DNA from: a virus
Length of the DNA: 23,740 nucleotides
Strand: one strand, 5' to 3'
Virus record (IMG/VR): IMGVR_UViG_3300031227_000435
Location: 1 to 23,740 of that record
The notes under the pieces are model-generated. The model did not search any database, was not told the DNA's origin, and saw nothing but the letters and a program-made list of their open reading frames with translations. Below, piece after piece: positions 4,190 through 21,769 of this stretch. The position numbers and the translations under genes were made by a program. Every line of letters begins with the position of its first letter. The first letter of the stretch is position 1.

Positions 4190-6194
4190 GATATTTGTAT
4201 GTGATGTAGCAACGGTCGCTGCCTCCGCACAACCTTTGCCCAATGGGCTTAATGTTCTTGGGGTCAGTCCATCCAAGATCCTCTAGCTCTTCACATTCAG
4301 AGCATACGCGCTCGTCGTTCTCAGTGAAATTCTTTGCTAGTACGCCGTCGCTGTATATGCGTCCTATCTTCCAGTCCATCTGCACTTTGTTGCGCGGGAA
4401 TACATTGTTTATGCGTAACTTAGCCCTCCACGCTGTTGCATGATTCCCAAAGATCTTGTATGAAGAGCTAGCGTACATGCGTAATCTATACGTAAATGAC
4501 GCCATGACGCCACGTATAGCATCTACTATAATGTCTTTGGAATTCCCTCCTAGCTCTCTTAGTTTGTCAATGATTGCCACTGATAGAGACTTTCTTAGAT
4601 TCGTGTCTAGGTAGTGAGCTTGGAACATCAGCTCGTCAACGATTGCCTTGTAGCCTTCTAGTGGAGGACGGTCCCCAACAAACTTAATCCATGCCGCAAT
4701 CATTCCCTCTGCAAGGCTTCCCTTAACTTCGTCTAAGAACTTATCCATATAGACGTCAATAAGGTCGGCCCATTCATCTTCGTCCTTACCGGCGAGATCC
4801 TCTGGTAGTGCTCCAAGCTCTCGTTCGTAGATGCGGAGCACCTCCTGCGCGACAGATGCTGTGAATGCCCCTGCTGAACCGGCTGTGTATGAATTCGCAA
4901 ACTCAGACATTTCAACGTCTTGCTCTGCTGGAAGTTTTACCTCATCAGCCTCTTTGCCGTCTGGCGGTTCTCCTGGAGATTGCTGCGCGGGCAGGTTGGG
5001 CTTTAGCAATAGTCCCGGCTCATCTATTTGCTCAATACCTATCATCCGTCTTACCTGATTCTCGGTCTCCATATTGTATGTAATGGCGCCCGCGTTGAAT
5101 AGTGAGCTGATGATGGTCGCGAAGTCCCCAACATCAATCTTGGAGATCTTGTCGAAGTAGACTTCTGGTAGCGCGTCGGTCTCGGGCATATTGTTTAGCT
5201 CGAATAGGCGCGTGACTGCATGGCGATTGATAACCGCTGCTATTTTGTTCAAATATGTGTTTAGCGCGATGATATATAGAGACGACTTGTCCTTAATCAT
5301 TGCGTACGAGCCGCCGCTTCCGCCGATCATGATAAAATCCATCATCATTGTTCTAGCTTCGTCTTCTTGATGGCGCTTAATAACTTCGCCTATGCTAATG
5401 GCTGGCCCATGCGCAGGCATTTTGTACTCAAAGCCCCATCCGTAAGGCAGGGTTAGGCCCATATCGTCGCCGAGCTTGATGTTTCTTGCTACTCGCTTTG
5501 CGCGGATTACGTCTGCACTACCTTCATCTGTCTCTGCGTTTTCTGGTAATGTGACTGTCGGCGTTCCAGATAGGCGCTCGCATACAACTGCCTCTAGGAT
5601 AGACAAGTTCTTAACAAAGAACCATGATGTATAACTTGACTCAAAGCAGCTAATGCCCTCGACGTTGTTCTTACCAGCTCCTGTAGTGGTGAAATGCAGC
5701 AACTTCTCAATAGGAATAAAAACCTCTTTCCCCTGCCACGACTGCCACATTCCGCTTAGTCCGCCGGATTCATCGAACTCCCAGCGGTCTAATGTTACTG
5801 GATGCCTCGGAGCCCACTTGCGCCACTCTACGCCGCCTTCGTCTCCCTTTTTGTAGACGATCTCCATATCCATCCATCCGTAAACAAGGAAGTATACGAT
5901 ATCGCCAATAACGTCCTCGAATGACTTCGACATATTGTGGAGATTGCGCTCAAGGAACGCGGCCTTGTCTTTGTCTGCTGACGTGTCGCCGCCTTCCTTC
6001 ACATGCAAACGCGCGCCCTGAAGAAACATGCGTGTGGTCTGGAGCATGGCTCCACCAACCGGATCAAGACGACTAATCTCATCGAAGACTTTTATCTTGC
6101 GCGCGCTAGATCGTAAGTCTCTAATCCAAGACTCTGAAATTACTCCATTATACTGAAGGGCGCCGGGCACCCCTAATTCATTGTATTTAGCCAT
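4173..6194 (-). CDS. Portal protein (Mu gp29/DUF935-like) fused to MuF-like C-terminus
   Basis: A 673-residue protein. Residues about 1-400 resemble the Mu-type portal family: 'SARKIKVFDEISRLDPVGGA', 'FEDVIGDIVYFLVYGWMDMEIVYK', 'WAPRHPVTLDRWEF' and 'LLHFTTTGAGKNNVEGIS'. After a Pro/Glu-rich linker (about 400-430), residues about 440-673 look like the head morphogenesis (MuF/gpF-like) domain. It ends with a Cys set at 631, 634, 656 and 662 (NDERVCSECEELEDLGWTDP...) that may bind metal. I chose the ATG at 6194, which overlaps the stop of the upstream ORF by eight bases and has GGTGAT upstream; the ATG at 6233 would add 13 residues inside that ORF. Portal and MuF domains are usually separate genes. 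Confidence 0.85.
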   Translation of the reverse strand: MAKYNELGVPGALQYNGVISESWIRDLRSSARKIKVFDEISRLDPVGGAMLQTTRMFLQGARLHVKEGGDTSADKDKAAFLERNLHNMSKSFEDVIGDIVYFLVYGWMDMEIVYKKGDEGGVEWRKWAPRHPVTLDRWEFDESGGLSGMWQSWQGKEVFIPIEKLLHFTTTGAGKNNVEGISCFESSYTSWFFVKNLSILEAVVCERLSGTPTVTLPENAETDEGSADVIRAKRVARNIKLGDDMGLTLPYGWGFEYKMPAHGPAISIGEVIKRHQEDEARTMMMDFIMIGGSGGSYAMIKDKSSLYIIALNTYLNKIAAVINRHAVTRLFELNNMPETDALPEVYFDKISKIDVGDFATIISSLFNAGAITYNMETENQVRRMIGIEQIDEPGLLLKPNLPAQQSPGEPPDGKEADEVKLPAEQDVEMSEFANSYTAGSAGAFTASVAQEVLRIYERELGALPEDLAGKDEDEWADLIDVYMDKFLDEVKGSLAEGMIAAWIKFVGDRPPLEGYKAIVDELMFQAHYLDTNLRKSLSVAIIDKLRELGGNSKDIIVDAIRGVMASFTYRLRMYASSSYKIFGNHATAWRAKLRINNVFPRNKVQMDWKIGRIYSDGVLAKNFTENDERVCSECEELEDLGWTDPKNIKPIGQRLCGGSDRCYITYKYHGRNF

Positions 6195-6342
6195 ATTTAT
6201 CACCAGGCAAATTGGCGCGAATAAAATCCTCATACTCTGATATTGGTAGTTTATAATTCGGATACAACATTATCACCCCACGACTATCTAGGATACGCTC
6301 TTTAATAGCGTCATTACTTTTTCGTCTCTCTAGGCCACTCAT
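6187..6342 (-). CDS. Small ORF, possibly 5'-truncated by the adjacent insertion
   Basis: A 51-residue frame (MSGLERRKSNDAIKERILDS... to ...NLPGDKYG) overlapping the portal start by eight bases. I recognise no family; it is charged and partly helical. Its ATG lies six bases beyond the end of the 91-base structured repeat at 6348-6438. The only ribosome-binding-like sequence (GGGGAGAG, about 15 bases upstream) belongs to that repeat and is too far away. The frame stays open upstream through the repeat to 6402. It is either a genuine small gene or the 3' remnant of a longer one cut by the insertion. Confidence 0.45.
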   Translation of the reverse strand: MSGLERRKSNDAIKERILDSRGVIMLYPNYKLPISEYEDFIRANLPGDKYG

Positions 6343-6347
6343 ATCGA

Positions 6348-6438
6348 AGTGACGACTCTCCCCGCTAAAGCAGGGAGCTTCCCAGGCTACGCTTGATCCC
6401 ATGATCTACGTTATCGCCTGGCGGCTCCGTCCGAGCCG
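6348..6438 (-). ncRNA. Omega-RNA-like structured RNA, left copy
   Basis: Read on the minus strand, three stems are visible. The first is CGGCTC/GAGCCG around a GGAC loop. The second is a long-range CCAGGC/GCCTGG. The third is a terminal CTCCCTGC-TTTA-GCGGGGAG hairpin. The sequence ends in GAGAGTCGTCACT. It aligns without gaps to the plus copy at 6818-6908, with 72 of 91 positions identical by hand count; many differences preserve pairing. I see no strong promoter of its own, so it may be transcribed as part of the late leftward operon. If it acts like a TnpB omega RNA, the guide would be the flanking bases starting TCGATATGAGTGG, at the start of the small ORF before the portal. Confidence 0.55.
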
Positions 6439-6802
6439 ACTTGATCGCTAAATGGAAAAGCTCAACAAATTCAAAGTGCTGCCTTCCCTGATATTCAAAG
6501 CTGATCATCAGTTTTTCATTGAAGCCGTCTATTTCAAGTTGGTATCCAGATTCATTTCTTAGCCAATCCGGTGTAACTGTCGGGAATTCTGCGCTGGCCA
6601 CATTCTCAATTGCCTTCCTGAATAGATTCTCGTGAACATTATTATTTTTTGCGCATACGGGACACCAAGAATTATGCGAGGCCACAGAATGAAAGCTGGT
6701 TTCCCATAATTCTCTCCGTAGGGGACTCCCTGCTTCAGCGGGGAGGGGAATTGCCTCCCCGATTTGCTTTAAGGTTATTATACCTTGACTTATATTATAC
6801 AA
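6365..6802 (-). pseudogene. Fragment of zinc-finger/PD-(D/E)XK homing-type nuclease
   Basis: The frame encodes 145 residues from a TTG. Only the middle (about residues 33-116) looks like protein: 'ETSFHSVASHNSWCPVCAKNN' is half of a treble-clef finger with one Cys pair, and 'YQLEIDGFNEKLMISFEYQGRQHFE' is a PD-(D/E)XK core (Asp, then Glu-Tyr-Gln). Full-length relatives have an earlier zinc half before this point and further sequence after the QHFE motif. Here both are replaced by insertion sequence: residues 18-30 translate the hairpin and residues 119-145 translate the 91-base repeat. The putative TTG start lies inside an AT-rich promoter of the opposite strand. I therefore call it a doubly truncated remnant, although the frame is open and expression cannot be excluded. 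Confidence 0.55.
6726..6745 (+). repeat. Third copy of the terminal hairpin, candidate left end
   Basis: CTCCCTGC-TTCA-GCGGGGAG is an 8-base stem with a 4-base loop. It differs from the hairpin at the end of the left omega-like copy by a single loop base. In IS200/IS605 elements the left and right ends each carry a subterminal hairpin of similar sequence. This could therefore be the left end of a roughly 190-base element ending at 6908. Its 3' arm can instead pair with CCTCCCC at 6754-6760. Confidence 0.45.
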
Positions 6803-6812
6803 TTAATATATT
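6785..6812 (+). promoter_or_regulatory. Sigma-70-like promoter for the right omega-RNA-like copy
   Basis: TTGACT (6785-6790), a 16-base spacer and TATATT (6807-6812) on the plus strand. A start about 6-8 bases downstream would fall at 6818-6820, at the first base of the first stem of the structured repeat. It points against the surrounding leftward operon. No U-rich terminator follows the repeat, so transcripts could continue antisense to the holin gene. Confidence 0.55.
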
Positions 6813-6817
6813 AAACC

Positions 6818-6908
6818 TGGCCCGGACGGGGCCATCGGGTGCTAACGTAGACAACGGTGTCATGCGTAGCCCGAGAAGCTCCCTGTTTTAACAGGGAGAG
6901 TCGTCACT
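6818..6908 (+). ncRNA. Omega-RNA-like structured RNA, right copy
   Basis: This is the plus-strand partner of 6348-6438. Its stems are TGGCCC/GGGCCA around GGAC, TCGGG/CCCGA, and the terminal CTCCCTGT-TTTA-ACAGGGAG hairpin followed by GAGAGTCGTCACT. Relative to the left copy, paired positions change together in all three stems, so selection on RNA or single-strand DNA structure acted on it or its ancestors. A promoter lies immediately upstream. If it is a TnpB-type omega RNA, the guide would start CTACTCTTCCGTGG, which reads the holin stop codon and the 3' end of the holin gene in antisense. The TnpB-type assignment rests on motif resemblance; the structure itself is seen directly. Confidence 0.6.
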
Positions 6909-7280
6909 CTACTCTTCCGTGGTGTCGATGCCTAGCTTTTTCATAATAATATCTGGGATTGGGACGCCAAGTGTTTTGAGGTTTTCCATTAGGTCTGCAG
7001 CTAGCCTAGTTTCAATAAGCAGTATGACAACTGGCGTGAGAGCTGCTAGCCCAATTGCTCCACCGAACGCTTCAGTAATAGCCAGTAGCCCAATGTATGG
7101 CAAAAGCTTGCGGTATAGGAACTCTATCACCCTCGCTAGCCTGAACTGGGCGCTCACGATCGACGTGAGTAATGCTACAGAAACGTTGAATAGTACATGG
7201 TACGTAATGAACTGCACGTACCACAAAGACCACAAATAAACAAATGCCTGGCTGAGCCATGTTAGAATAACGATTTCCAT
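6909..7280 (-). CDS. Holin, PF05105/TcdE-like
   Basis: A 123-residue membrane protein with hydrophobic segments at about residues 3-20, 28-45 and 60-90. It ends in the characteristic amphipathic tail 'ETRLAADLMENLKTLGVPIPDII', close to the family's 'E..SI.EN...LGVPIP' signature. Such holins form pores in the inner membrane and time lysis. GGGAG lies 7 bases before the ATG. Its place between large terminase and portal is unusual, since holin normally lies next to lysin; here the lysin is on the opposite strand about 6 kb away. Its stop codon directly abuts the omega-RNA-like repeat, so the insertion did not damage the coding region. Confidence 0.78.
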   Translation of the reverse strand: MEIVILTWLSQAFVYLWSLWYVQFITYHVLFNVSVALLTSIVSAQFRLARVIEFLYRKLLPYIGLLAITEAFGGAIGLAALTPVVILLIETRLAADLMENLKTLGVPIPDIIMKKLGIDTTEE

Positions 7281-17139: not shown

Positions 17140-20115
17140 CTAAAGTGAACAAGTCCCGGTCGTGCATCGCTCCCCAAATATGTCTTGAGAATCTACATGC
17201 ATCTTTAGCCCTACTTCACTCAGGTCAGGCACTTTCTTTTCTGTGCCGATAGATACAACTTGCACATTGCGACTCCCGTCTCTGTAAAGCGTCGTTGACT
17301 TGCACCCAGATTCCCATGCATGCATAAATGCATTCTCGACGTCTTCTATTGTCGCGGAATTCGGGGCGTTAATCGTCTTGCTCACAGCCGAGTCCATATG
17401 TCTTTGCCATACCGCTTGCATATCAACATGCCTGCGCCATGGTATTTCTTGACCTAGCCTAAATAAATCCCGTATATCACCGGCGATGTCAGTCATGCTT
17501 GAAACTGTACCACTACGGGCTACTCTATGCATTAATTCGTCGCTATACAAACCTCGTTTTTTCATCACTGACTCAAACATTGAGTTAGTTTCTACGAATT
17601 GTCCTAATACGCTATTTTTAATATACGCAAGCCCGAAGAGCGGTTCGATGGACGGGCTTACATTAGCAAGTGTCGCTATAGATCCTGTAGGGGCAATACT
17701 TGTAAGCGTCGTATTCAGCCTTGTCCCATGCTGCTCTGCATAGCTCCCCGCAGCCTCATTTGCCATACTCTCAAATGTTGCAGCTAGCCATTCCGAGAAT
17801 TCTATTGCATAGTCACTGTCATATGGGATTCCTAAAGCAATAAGCATATCTGCCAGGCCCATTACGCCAAGGCCTATGTTGCGATACTTTAATGTATTGT
17901 CGCGCAACTTATCAATAGGCCACCAGGCATGGTTAATGCTGTCGTTGAGGAACCACACGCCAGTGCGTATTGATTTGCGCAGTCTGCGTAAGTTGATTGA
18001 ATAAGATCCATCTGGAGATTCGTCTAGCGCACTAACTAAATTTATACTCCCGAGATTGCAGCTTGTGTAGCCGGGCATTGGTTGCTCAGAGCAAGCATTG
18101 GTTGCCTCTATAGGCTCTGGGAAATTGTTGTATCTATTAATTGTGTCGAGAAAAATTACACCAGGCTCTCCATTATTCCAGGCATGCCTGGCAATCCTGT
18201 GGTATAAATTCCTAGCAGATATTTTTCTATATACTATCCCTCCAAAGTGTAGCGCCCATTCTTTATCTCCTTTGACAGCCTTCATAAAATCATCGCTGAT
18301 CCCAACACTGATATTGAAATTAACCATGTCTGTCTCGGCGTCTTTCATTGTAATGAATTTCTCGATGTCTGGATGGCTCACGTCAAGAATACCCATTTGA
18401 GCGCCTCCCTTATTCCCGTTACGCGTAATGCACTTAGTGACACTATTATAGAGCTGCATAAAACTTATTGGTCCAGATGCATTCCCGCGAGTAGTAGAGA
18501 TTATATTCCCCTCTGGGCGTACATGGCTGAAGTTATAGCCTGTATTATGCACGACAACAAAGTCCCCGGACCCACTTGGAGCCGCTAGATACGTTTGATT
18601 ACCAGGCACTGTTAAGTCATACAGAACTTTCCCGTCATCAAGTTGATCAACGCTGTATACAATCTGGCTTGATAAAATCGATTGAGCTAATTCGATATCC
18701 CCGCATGCCTCCGCGATGATTGATGCTGTATCGCGAGTTGCCTTGCCGCGCTGTAGCCAGTTTGCTATTGAGGTTGTGCGCCCATTGATATTAACTGGAC
18801 CCCGGTACTCGGCGCGCCCTATTTTTACGCCAATCGCCCGCAACTTTTCGCGCCAACTTTTGCTTAAATCAACAGCGCCCCTAGTATGGTGACTCTCTTG
18901 CAAGCCGCTGTATGTAGCGCTGGTATCCATCACCGCGCTGAACATCGCCTGAGATTTTAGATATATTATTTCCCATATTGGGCTTTCGTTGTCCTTTCTT
19001 GACTTTCGCAGCCTAGTACGAGTGCGTATACCGAGGCTGCCAGCGAGGGCCACAAGGCCGTGTGCCAAGTCATCGCTAATTGTCGCTGCCTCAAAACGCT
19101 TTTTCTCTTTGTTGTACCAACCATCGGAGTCAAGGTGTCCGACAATAAAGGAAAACTTGGCCTCCGGCGCCGCCGTCCATAATTCGCCTGGAACATGTTT
19201 TGTTTTAGCTGTCATAAAGCCGCCGAATGCGCTTTTAATGTCTTCGGCTTTTTCGCCGTAAGCGCCGAACTCCCACATATTAACCTTGTATCTATCGTCC
19301 ACGGCTGGTCGATATGCTACGCCCATAATACTGGCGGCGCGACTAATCGCAGATTCGCTATCATCCTTAACGCGCACTCTTACGTATCCGTTGCCGTTTT
19401 TAGAGATGCATCCGTCTCCGGCTAAGTATCCAAGGAGCCATCCCCTGTCGTTATAGCCCCTCTCGCTAGCAGACGATCCAATGATTGCCATACCATGCTC
19501 CAATTCGTCTGCGCGAACTTGCACAACGCCTTCACCATCAAAAACGAAAAATGGATGCCAATCGCTTACCTCAATACTTGAGCTCGGCGCGCCGTTGCTG
19601 TGAGCGAATGTGATTCTATATACTCTTCCCGGCGGCGTGTCTACAATATGCCACTCCCCGATAGTGGAGAGTCCCATTTTTTTAGTTTGCTCATTATATG
19701 ACAGAACTTGAATTTCAGGATTTTGTTGTTTTACTAAATCGCTCATGGGCATCGGGCCATTACTGGTTATGACAACGCTATCTCCATCAATGCATCCTCC
19801 TCCGAACGCCTGTACTTCAGCCATGTCTCGCAAGACGCTAAAGATGCTATCGCGGGAATCTTCGATAGGCCCCAAAACAAAGCATGAGCTACAGAACGGT
19901 TTCTCTGTGCCCATATATGGCATGCGGCTGGGAATGAATCGCTGACGAACAATCTCCTCCCAGTATAGGGACGCCTTTATTCTGTCTAGGCTATCGTCCC
20001 CAGGCGCCGCATGCTTAGCAGCCCTCGCTGCAAGATCCTCCCAAGACTCTCCTGGCAAGAGATATCTTGTGTTCAATAAACGTCGGGCGGTCTCGGTTAA
20101 TGTATAATCCAACAT
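17140..20115 (-). CDS. nrdJ: Ribonucleotide reductase, class II (NrdJ)-like, with intein
   Basis: Encodes 991 residues: 107 + 417 (intein) + 467, giving a mature enzyme of about 574. It makes deoxynucleotides from ribonucleotides. Visible motifs are 'PFCSSCFVL' (Cys75/78), the 'GGG/TGYNFS' loop split by the intein, 'NACSEQP' with Asn673, Cys675 and Glu677 (active site), 'SCNLGSINL' (685-693), 'SIAPTGSIA' (807-815) and the C-terminal redox pair Cys984/Cys989 in 'CTTGTCSL'. There is no N-terminal ATP cone, and no small-subunit gene in the window. Together with the 'GGGTGxNFS' style this suggests the B12-dependent monomeric class; class I alpha is the alternative. GGAGAT precedes the ATG at 20115. 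Confidence 0.88.
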   Translation of the reverse strand: MLDYTLTETARRLLNTRYLLPGESWEDLAARAAKHAAPGDDSLDRIKASLYWEEIVRQRFIPSRMPYMGTEKPFCSSCFVLGPIEDSRDSIFSVLRDMAEVQAFGGGCIDGDSVVITSNGPMPMSDLVKQQNPEIQVLSYNEQTKKMGLSTIGEWHIVDTPPGRVYRITFAHSNGAPSSSIEVSDWHPFFVFDGEGVVQVRADELEHGMAIIGSSASERGYNDRGWLLGYLAGDGCISKNGNGYVRVRVKDDSESAISRAASIMGVAYRPAVDDRYKVNMWEFGAYGEKAEDIKSAFGGFMTAKTKHVPGELWTAAPEAKFSFIVGHLDSDGWYNKEKKRFEAATISDDLAHGLVALAGSLGIRTRTRLRKSRKDNESPIWEIIYLKSQAMFSAVMDTSATYSGLQESHHTRGAVDLSKSWREKLRAIGVKIGRAEYRGPVNINGRTTSIANWLQRGKATRDTASIIAEACGDIELAQSILSSQIVYSVDQLDDGKVLYDLTVPGNQTYLAAPSGSGDFVVVHNTGYNFSHVRPEGNIISTTRGNASGPISFMQLYNSVTKCITRNGNKGGAQMGILDVSHPDIEKFITMKDAETDMVNFNISVGISDDFMKAVKGDKEWALHFGGIVYRKISARNLYHRIARHAWNNGEPGVIFLDTINRYNNFPEPIEATNACSEQPMPGYTSCNLGSINLVSALDESPDGSYSINLRRLRKSIRTGVWFLNDSINHAWWPIDKLRDNTLKYRNIGLGVMGLADMLIALGIPYDSDYAIEFSEWLAATFESMANEAAGSYAEQHGTRLNTTLTSIAPTGSIATLANVSPSIEPLFGLAYIKNSVLGQFVETNSMFESVMKKRGLYSDELMHRVARSGTVSSMTDIAGDIRDLFRLGQEIPWRRHVDMQAVWQRHMDSAVSKTINAPNSATIEDVENAFMHAWESGCKSTTLYRDGSRNVQVVSIGTEKKVPDLSEVGLKMHVDSQDIFGERCTTGTCSL
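18544..19794 (-). other. Intein with LAGLIDADG homing endonuclease inside the reductase
   Basis: 417 residues (108-524 of the precursor). It starts with Cys108 in 'CIDGDSVVITSNG' and ends 'GDFVVVHN' (His523-Asn524), followed by Thr525 as the +1 nucleophile. Block B-like 'SDWHPFF' carries His187. The endonuclease has two LAGLIDADG helices: 'LLGYLAGDG' (Asp234) and 'FIVGHLDSDG' (Asp331), both with the metal-binding Asp, so it may still cut intein-free alleles. The insertion splits the conserved Gly-Gly-Gly/Thr-Gly loop of the enzyme, which must be spliced for activity. All splice-junction residues look functional. Confidence 0.9.
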
Positions 20116-20863: not shown

Positions 20864-21769
20864 TTAAATTTTTCCAACAAGTATGGAGCCTGTCCACGTA
20901 TGAATCTCTGGAGCGGATCTGTCGGGAGGGTTCGATATGTCAGGGAGTGAATTATACAGCTCTCTAAAATCTCTATCTGCCGTTCTAGCTGTTTCACCTT
21001 CAATAAAAGCAGCTCTTCGTCTTGAGATATAGAACTTTGGGTGGGTTCTGCTATACAGCACATCATAAGCCCCCTTAATATCATCGGCTGATTTGAAATA
21101 ACTCACAAAGTTACGCTCGTTCCGGTAATGCATCTCCACGCCTGGGAGCGCCCTCTCGTTTAACTCCTCTAGTATATGTGGCGATAGCGATGTGAATCCC
21201 CTTTTCTCCCACCATCCACGCGCAAAGTCTACGCACGTTTCTCCGTGCAGCTCAGGGAGCATGAGGTTGGCATGAGATCCCATAGGAAGCCCTAACTCTA
21301 ACATCCTACGCGATAACTCTACGCTGTTCACTACAGACGCCCACATTGTAGAGGTACCGTCTTGTTCAATGCAGTCTGGGAATGATTGCATTTTCAGTAA
21401 CTCTTTGAGTTTCGAGCATATATCTATGTTCTCGTCCCCACACATCAAGTTAATCCTTGATCCGACTGTATTATACCCGCCTCCCCATATAAGCCCCATT
21501 GCGTACGCCTGCAACGGGCCTATCTCGTCGAAGAATCTTTCGTCAAAATTGTGTATTCGCTTGTGCGTCCTGCTCTTCTTTACCGCAAGCGTCCTGGATT
21601 CGCTTTTGTCCCTCAACTCAAATCCGAACTCCCTGACTCTGTTCATAATTGTTGTTTGGGTTGTTCCAAGGCGCTCTGCAACTTCTCTCAGAGATAGCCC
21701 CTCGTCTAGATAGAGCTTTTGTATATCCTTTTTGGATACCTTTGCTTTCGATCTTCGTCTTTTGGACAC
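20864..21769 (-). CDS. HTH protein with degenerate LAGLIDADG domain
   Basis: A 301-residue protein. A basic N-terminus (MSKRRRSKAK) is followed by a resolvase-type helix-turn-helix (residues 13-50, 'KKDIQKLYLDEGLSLREVAERLGTTQTTIMNRV'). From about 85 onward it follows the two-repeat LAGLIDADG layout: 'AYAMGLIWGGGY' (88-99) and 'DFARGWWEKRGFTSL' (181-195). In active enzymes each motif ends in Asp-Gly; here the positions read Gly97 and Lys/Arg, so neither catalytic Asp is present. It probably binds DNA without cutting. The start is GTG at 21769, with AGGAG eight bases upstream; the upstream ThyX stop lies 11 bases before it. Confidence 0.72.
   Translation of the reverse strand: MSKRRRSKAKVSKKDIQKLYLDEGLSLREVAERLGTTQTTIMNRVREFGFELRDKSESRTLAVKKSRTHKRIHNFDERFFDEIGPLQAYAMGLIWGGGYNTVGSRINLMCGDENIDICSKLKELLKMQSFPDCIEQDGTSTMWASVVNSVELSRRMLELGLPMGSHANLMLPELHGETCVDFARGWWEKRGFTSLSPHILEELNERALPGVEMHYRNERNFVSYFKSADDIKGAYDVLYSRTHPKFYISRRRAAFIEGETARTADRDFRELYNSLPDISNPPDRSAPEIHTWTGSILVGKI

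Follow-up and report, generated by a model that had tools for sequence, protein, structure and literature searches.

In TnpB systems of the ISDra2 type, the guide RNA (reRNA, or omegaRNA) has a scaffold that spans the 3' end of tnpB and the right end (RE) of the element, stops at the RE boundary and is followed by flanking DNA that serves as the guide (PMC8612924, PMC10278001). It forms stems plus a pseudoknot, and the element inserts 3' of a short motif. The two repeats described here resemble it in these features, the guide and the insertion motif being putative, but their elements lack tnpB and tnpA, their putative TAM is CCAT where ISDra2 has TTGAT, and their recognisable scaffold is shorter (91 nt) and absent from Rfam 15. 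The PATEs, or terminal-only IS605 elements, of Haloquadratum are known as core-deletion derivatives, in a study that did not discuss their RNA (PMC3119063). Like our elements they are transposase-free, have subterminal palindromes and an IS605-type core deletion, and in some cases keep part of the tnpB C-terminal region; ours, however, keep a complete omegaRNA scaffold, and structural selection is evident in one tnpB-less family. Standalone, trans-acting omegaRNAs of IscB, encoded at guide-RNA loci apart from the nuclease gene, were reportedly described by Altae-Tran and colleagues in 2021. Our loci are likewise separated from the nuclease gene, but they are of TnpB type, would take their guide from the 3' flank and sit in phage-borne mobile mini-elements. 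Phages also carry free-standing homing nucleases of the I-Bth0305I type, which combine zinc ribbons with a domain of Vsr-like (EDxHD) kind. A gene interrupted at our locus resembles these in its treble-clef modules (DUF4379 in the homologue L058) and its EYQGxQH ... D..K motifs, but here it is a pseudogene without the N-terminal modules, split by the left of our two repeats.

The DNA analysed, hereafter the window, is a 23.7-kb fragment (23,740 nucleotides) of a viral genome. Our main reading, with a probability of roughly 0.85, is that both repeats are right ends of TnpB elements devoid of tnpB, the right one belonging to a core-deleted mini-element 3' of CCCAT and the left one being an RE-only remnant in a nuclease gene; we infer that the mini-element goes back to core deletion, that the left copy most likely came from a further deletion, and that TnpA and TnpB would act in trans. 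A repeat search returned one inverted pair, by far the longest in the window (6348-6437 and 6819-6908, 80% complementary). With boundaries refined, the two copies are:

6349-6439, minus strand: left copy, omegaRNA scaffold/RE (106.8 bits, E 3e-20 with covariance model R1; sharing about 95% identity over 74 nt with the right end of tnpB in L093)
6817-6907, plus strand: right copy, omegaRNA scaffold/RE (105 bits, E 5e-20 with R1; aligned with TnpB right ends)

The final T is counted as flank because homologues diverge after ...GTCGTCAC. A sequence-only reading of this DNA had described two gapless 91-base inverted copies, about 79% identical, with covarying stems. The alignment is indeed gapless, with a measured identity of 78% (20 differences over 91 model positions), and on each strand the fold energy is lower than in all 200 of 200 shuffles (z = -3.6 and -4.1). 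Sixteen of the 20 differences fall in paired columns: among 30 consensus pairs, seven changed on both sides, two on one side through G-U and none was broken, a preservation equalled in 0 of 20,000 random placements of 20 substitutions. In large part this covariation reflects how TnpB-bearing lineages have diverged. The left copy is so close to the RE of an intact tnpB in a related phage that covariation between the copies is, alone, no proof of present function, and the copies' own covariation may predate the loss of tnpB. All pairs of the right copy are intact, several of them found in no other copy, and our searches found no close tnpB-bearing relative of it. ARAGORN found no tRNA. At the gathering score neither HEARO/IscB omegaRNA nor any other Rfam 15 model matched the repeats, and a permissive threshold gave only a chance-level match (E 2); blastn of the region against named phages found nothing.

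It is nearly certain that the repeats represent no new RNA class but the right end, with its omegaRNA scaffold, of an IS200/IS605 TnpB family. A degenerate pattern built from the terminal hairpin and searched against 84,980 species genomes matched a complete IS200/IS605 element of Desulfacinum hydrothermale (L012), encoding a TnpA of 129 aa (transpos_IS200) and a TnpB of 393 aa (NCBIfam guided_TnpB, E 2e-93), as well as copies in two Chloroflexi (Chloroflexota) MAGs. The TnpB reading frame of L012 terminates inside the scaffold repeat, so that scaffold and last tnpB codons overlap, and the position at the 3' end of tnpB recurs in L093, L103, L104 and many Chloroflexota loci. Of 301 Chloroflexota genomes searched with a covariance model built on 11 copies, 19 contained the structure, and about half of the loci fetched had a tnpB gene or a tnpB 3' end directly upstream. 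The model also placed it 3' of tnpB in nine further distinct viral contigs. Over 51 sequences, 95.8% of cells are paired and 28 of 32 pairs show double changes, as in 0 of 500 shuffles and far above shuffled and slid controls. A pseudoknot, a known feature of TnpB reRNA (PMC10711439), is formed by a 4-bp helix between the loop of stem 1 and the 3' end. It reads GACG/CGTC in both window copies and is replaced elsewhere by GGCA/TGTC, GATG/CATC or GGCC/GGTC (92.7% paired in the 51 sequences, double changes in three of four pairs). In the window copies and their homologues alike, similarity stops after GTCGTCAC, and the flanks of the two copies differ. The position at the 3' end of tnpB, the covariation and the pseudoknot therefore show each repeat to be the RE and omegaRNA (reRNA) scaffold of an IS200/IS605-type TnpB element minus tnpB. 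The sequence-only reading had thus guessed the right kind of RNA, and had rightly noted the lack of tnpA and tnpB: the window holds only remnants of the last tnpB codons. It had also named, as what would refute it, an absence of TnpB right-end matches and of structured copies in related phages; both were found. Simple-pattern matches in the viral loci L006, L007, L009 and L010, and likewise L121, had no covariance-model match and were discarded as chance.

The right copy lies at the end of a compact element:

6703-6707, plus strand: CCCAT, target motif (putative TAM) 5' of the element (CCAT precedes the left end in L016, L018, L023, L087 and L119/L120; CTAT in L012)
6708-6907, plus strand: whole mini-element of 200 bp, with left end (LE), promoter-like site and scaffold/RE, without tnpB (LE alignments with L012, L016, L018 and L023; same architecture in the phage element L119/L120)
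6726-6745, plus strand: third hairpin CTCCCTGCTTCAGCGGGGAG, LE subterminal palindrome (sequence and LE alignment)
6785-6812, plus strand: promoter-like site TTGACT-16-TATATT (10/12), 4 nt before the scaffold (sequence match; a site at the same place in L120)
6908-6927, plus strand: flank directly after GTCGTCAC, the would-be guide by analogy with TnpB biology (PMC8612924, PMC10278001), comprising the holin stop codon and 3' end

The third hairpin, missed in the earlier reading, and its 5' flank (6708-6760) align with the LEs of L012, L016, L018 and L023. The order is left end, about 60 bp, scaffold; both ends have subterminal palindromes and there is no transposase-type ORF. The promoter-like match alone is not significant, 1.1 such sites per 800 bp being expected by chance. 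The same order follows TATCCAT in L119/L120 (contigs of 22.7 and 47.4 kb), with TTGACT-17-TATAAT, an extended -10 and an intact scaffold, and in L012 the corresponding site upstream of tnpA reads TTGACA. Core deletion thus appears to put the element's own promoter directly 5' of the guide RNA, in an architecture repeated in L119/L120, L023 and L016/L018. CCCAT precedes the LE, in line with the homologues; with the nuclease gene missing from this locus in the sister phage, no exact empty site is available there. A shorter form is seen in L087:271-361 (G003:C310): this terminal-only copy follows GATCCAT and consists of fused LE and RE hairpins, so that about 50 bp of an IS605 element remain.

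The left copy has a different setting:

6329-6348, minus strand: flank 3' of the left RE, directly after GTCGTCAC, the would-be guide; it equals the nuclease gene just past the break
6349-6451, minus strand: RE-only insertion in the nuclease gene, carrying the last 28 or so tnpB codons (LAIKSARTEPPGDNVDHGIKRSLGSSLL, stop at 6365-6367); its 5' boundary is uncertain by a few nt
6452-6455, minus strand: CCAT immediately 5' of the insertion, the motif found at other insertion sites
6452-6707, minus strand: 5' part of the nuclease pseudogene, with the last zinc ribbon and first catalytic motifs (...EYQGRQHFEFVELFH; 46% identity to L058 when joined to the 3' part, PHROG matches)
6187-6348, minus strand: 3' part of the nuclease pseudogene (FDMSGLERRKSNDAIKERILDSRGVIMLYPNYKL...), whose stop overlaps the portal start (ATG at 6194; alignment with L058)
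6195-6908, no strand: whole stretch missing from the sister phage (L089:5998-6006)

As a right-end-only remnant 3' of CCAT, the left copy interrupts the gene for a Vsr-like (EDxHD-type) homing nuclease, situated between the holin and portal genes. Between the repeats, the ORF consists of the nuclease's 5' part fused to the 28 terminal tnpB codons of the RE, and because it is half a gene joined to a tnpB tail, on its own it gave only weak matches in Pfam, PHROG and PDB. Once the two nuclease parts are joined, PHROG E-values improve to 6e-9 and 1e-7, from 0.02 and 4e-4 for the 5' part, and the product aligns end to end with the uninterrupted 371-aa nuclease L058, encoded elsewhere in the sister phage (46% identity over 129 aa; a gap of 2 residues falls close to the junction). 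The frame is kept across the break if 97, 100 or 103 nt are set aside. No full catalytic domain lies in one open frame of the window nuclease, split as it is by the left RE, and the N-terminal zinc modules of L058 are missing, so the gene is doubly damaged; tblastn of the joined nuclease against named phages gave no match. No LE was found between CCAT and the left RE. Two histories would account for this: insertion of a full element with later loss of everything as far as the tnpB 3' end, or movement of an RE-only unit. The claim that a nuclease lies between the copies accordingly holds for its homology to nucleases, not for its extent, since the remainder of the gene is outside the pair (6187-6348). 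Nor do the two copies bound a single element, as had been proposed: the right copy has its own LE and the left one breaks the nuclease, and the layout is that of two separate insertions around a target, not of one element around cargo.

Portal homologues point to a sister phage (L089/L090, 89%) and, less closely related, the group L091-L094 (72%). In the sister phage only 3 nt separate the holin stop from the portal ATG, and the whole of 6195-6908 is thus an addition in the window; the sister contigs yielded neither a scaffold nor a TnpB. The earlier suggestion to look for a TnpB gene elsewhere was rewarded in the distant group: L093/L094 carry an intact TnpB of 399 aa, with OrfB_IS605 and Cas12f1-like TNB domains, just 5' of the terminase small-subunit gene. 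The L093 protein has RuvC-type motifs by inspection (GIDMG, IEDL, DRDTNAA), and the right end of its gene shares 94.6% identity with the left window copy over 74 nt. Directly upstream of this tnpB is a small ribbon-helix-helix-like ORF that is not TnpA (L093:2022-2174). In L105, too, tnpB adjoins a terminase small-subunit-like gene, and in L103 tnpB and scaffold (5001-6186 / 6211) are inserted directly 5' of the ribonucleotide reductase gene; phage TnpB thus seems to favour the starts of essential genes. Two phage tnpB genes have a tandem pair of omegaRNA scaffolds behind them, spaced 37-58 nt apart and each continuing into a downstream sequence of its own (L105:6283-6504, on the same contig as L122, and L107:6176-6417), which could be guide duplication.

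Other features of the window deserve mention. A 991-aa ribonucleotide reductase ORF (17140-20115, minus strand) has an insert of about 417 aa (residues 108-524) that is absent from its homologues in L103 and L059 and resembles an intein. A different insertion occurs farther along in L059. A 301-aa protein with an N-terminal helix-turn-helix (20864-21769, minus strand; Pfam HTH only) is possibly another homing endonuclease. The near-identical contig L005 (IMGVR_UViG_3300005915_000630) ends at window position 6751 or so, inside the LE hairpin of the right element, probably through an assembly break at the repeats.

Are the guide RNAs of such elements still used? One answer, which we put a little below even odds, is that the repeats are pure debris, decayed ends of TnpB elements that have no present role and whose structure survives only through recent deletions. 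The left copy fits this well, having no left end, no promoter of its own and an RE still almost that of a functional-looking tnpB, in a nuclease gene that is itself a pseudogene; moreover, core-deleted IS605 elements are common, and those of Haloquadratum were explained by repeat-mediated deletions (PMC3119063). The right copy fits it less well, being fully paired, with pairs of its own and no close tnpB-bearing relative found. The recurrence of the promoter and scaffold architecture in another phage (L119/L120) and in bacteria also speaks against debris, as does a tnpB-less family that keeps stems 1-3 by compensatory change.

This family, in Chloroflexota, comprises elements of about 280 bp in six distinct copies, 12-28% divergent, with no tnpB within 1.5 kb. 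The core is homologous throughout, and tnpB was therefore lost before the copies diverged. Double changes affect 12 of 29 scaffold pairs, 97% of cells pair, and compensatory change covers stems 1-3. Stems 1 and 2 are maintained, although transposition alone should need neither. Selection after tnpB loss is demonstrated nearest to our case in this family, and not in the window phage. Together with the phage mini-elements, this upkeep of the fold suggests trans-acting guides, and the orphan guide RNAs of such elements may still be in use. In the open-access literature, where our search was not exhaustive, we found no earlier report of tnpB-less elements with a maintained guide RNA.

For the window copies themselves, a role as trans-acting guides is doubtful on this comparative evidence. 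Its fullest form, likewise on the unlikely side, would make the mini-elements dedicated orphan phage guide-RNA genes (promoter, TnpB scaffold and flank guide), selected to program the TnpB of a co-infecting relative or of the host, such that any phage whose nuclease gene is uninterrupted or whose site is empty would be cut and converted.

A role in transposition only, with hairpin ends recognised by TnpA and no guide RNA, is less probable still. IS200/IS605 ends do need subterminal hairpins, and the terminal hairpin (CTCCCTG...CGGGGAG) resembles that of the LE; however, one hairpin suffices for the LE, whereas covariation here extends to stems 1 and 2 and to the pairing of loop and 3' end, 30-85 nt inside the end, the latter being a pseudoknot known from reRNA (PMC10711439). 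Finally, a composite mobile element, its nuclease gene mobilised between two inverted omegaRNA-like ends, is hardly credible: the inverted copies do flank the larger part of the nuclease ORF, which reads into the left RE, but we rejected this arrangement once the 3' part of the gene proved to run on past the left RE, beyond the pair. In addition, the right RE has an LE of its own between the copies, the full-length sister-phage nuclease has no REs nearby, and no other locus so arranged was found.

Under our main reading of two tnpB-less right ends, core deletion would have joined the promoter-bearing left end to the 3' end of tnpB. The product would be a minimal unit in which a promoter precedes the scaffold and a guide drawn from the flank, and which a Y1 transposase (TnpA) could move in trans. 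If transcribed, the mini-element RNA could load a TnpB likewise supplied in trans, such as that encoded by the related phage L093, host elements being another source. TnpB would then be directed to the empty insertion site, and phages without the insertion would be cut and converted. A further deletion most likely produced the left copy, which, lacking a promoter of its own, would, if it works at all, be read from a passing late-gene transcript.

Core-deleted IS605 elements are usually viewed as debris or as passengers of TnpA. Our data suggest that in phages and bacteria a subset of them keeps a complete, promoter-led TnpB guide RNA after the loss of tnpB. A covariance model is now available for this omegaRNA family absent from Rfam, and the phages described here provide a concrete pair for tests, one with TnpB and one with orphan scaffolds. 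If confirmed, non-autonomous elements would share in RNA-guided homing in trans, and one mobile element, of TnpB type, would be seen silencing another, a homing nuclease, inside a phage.
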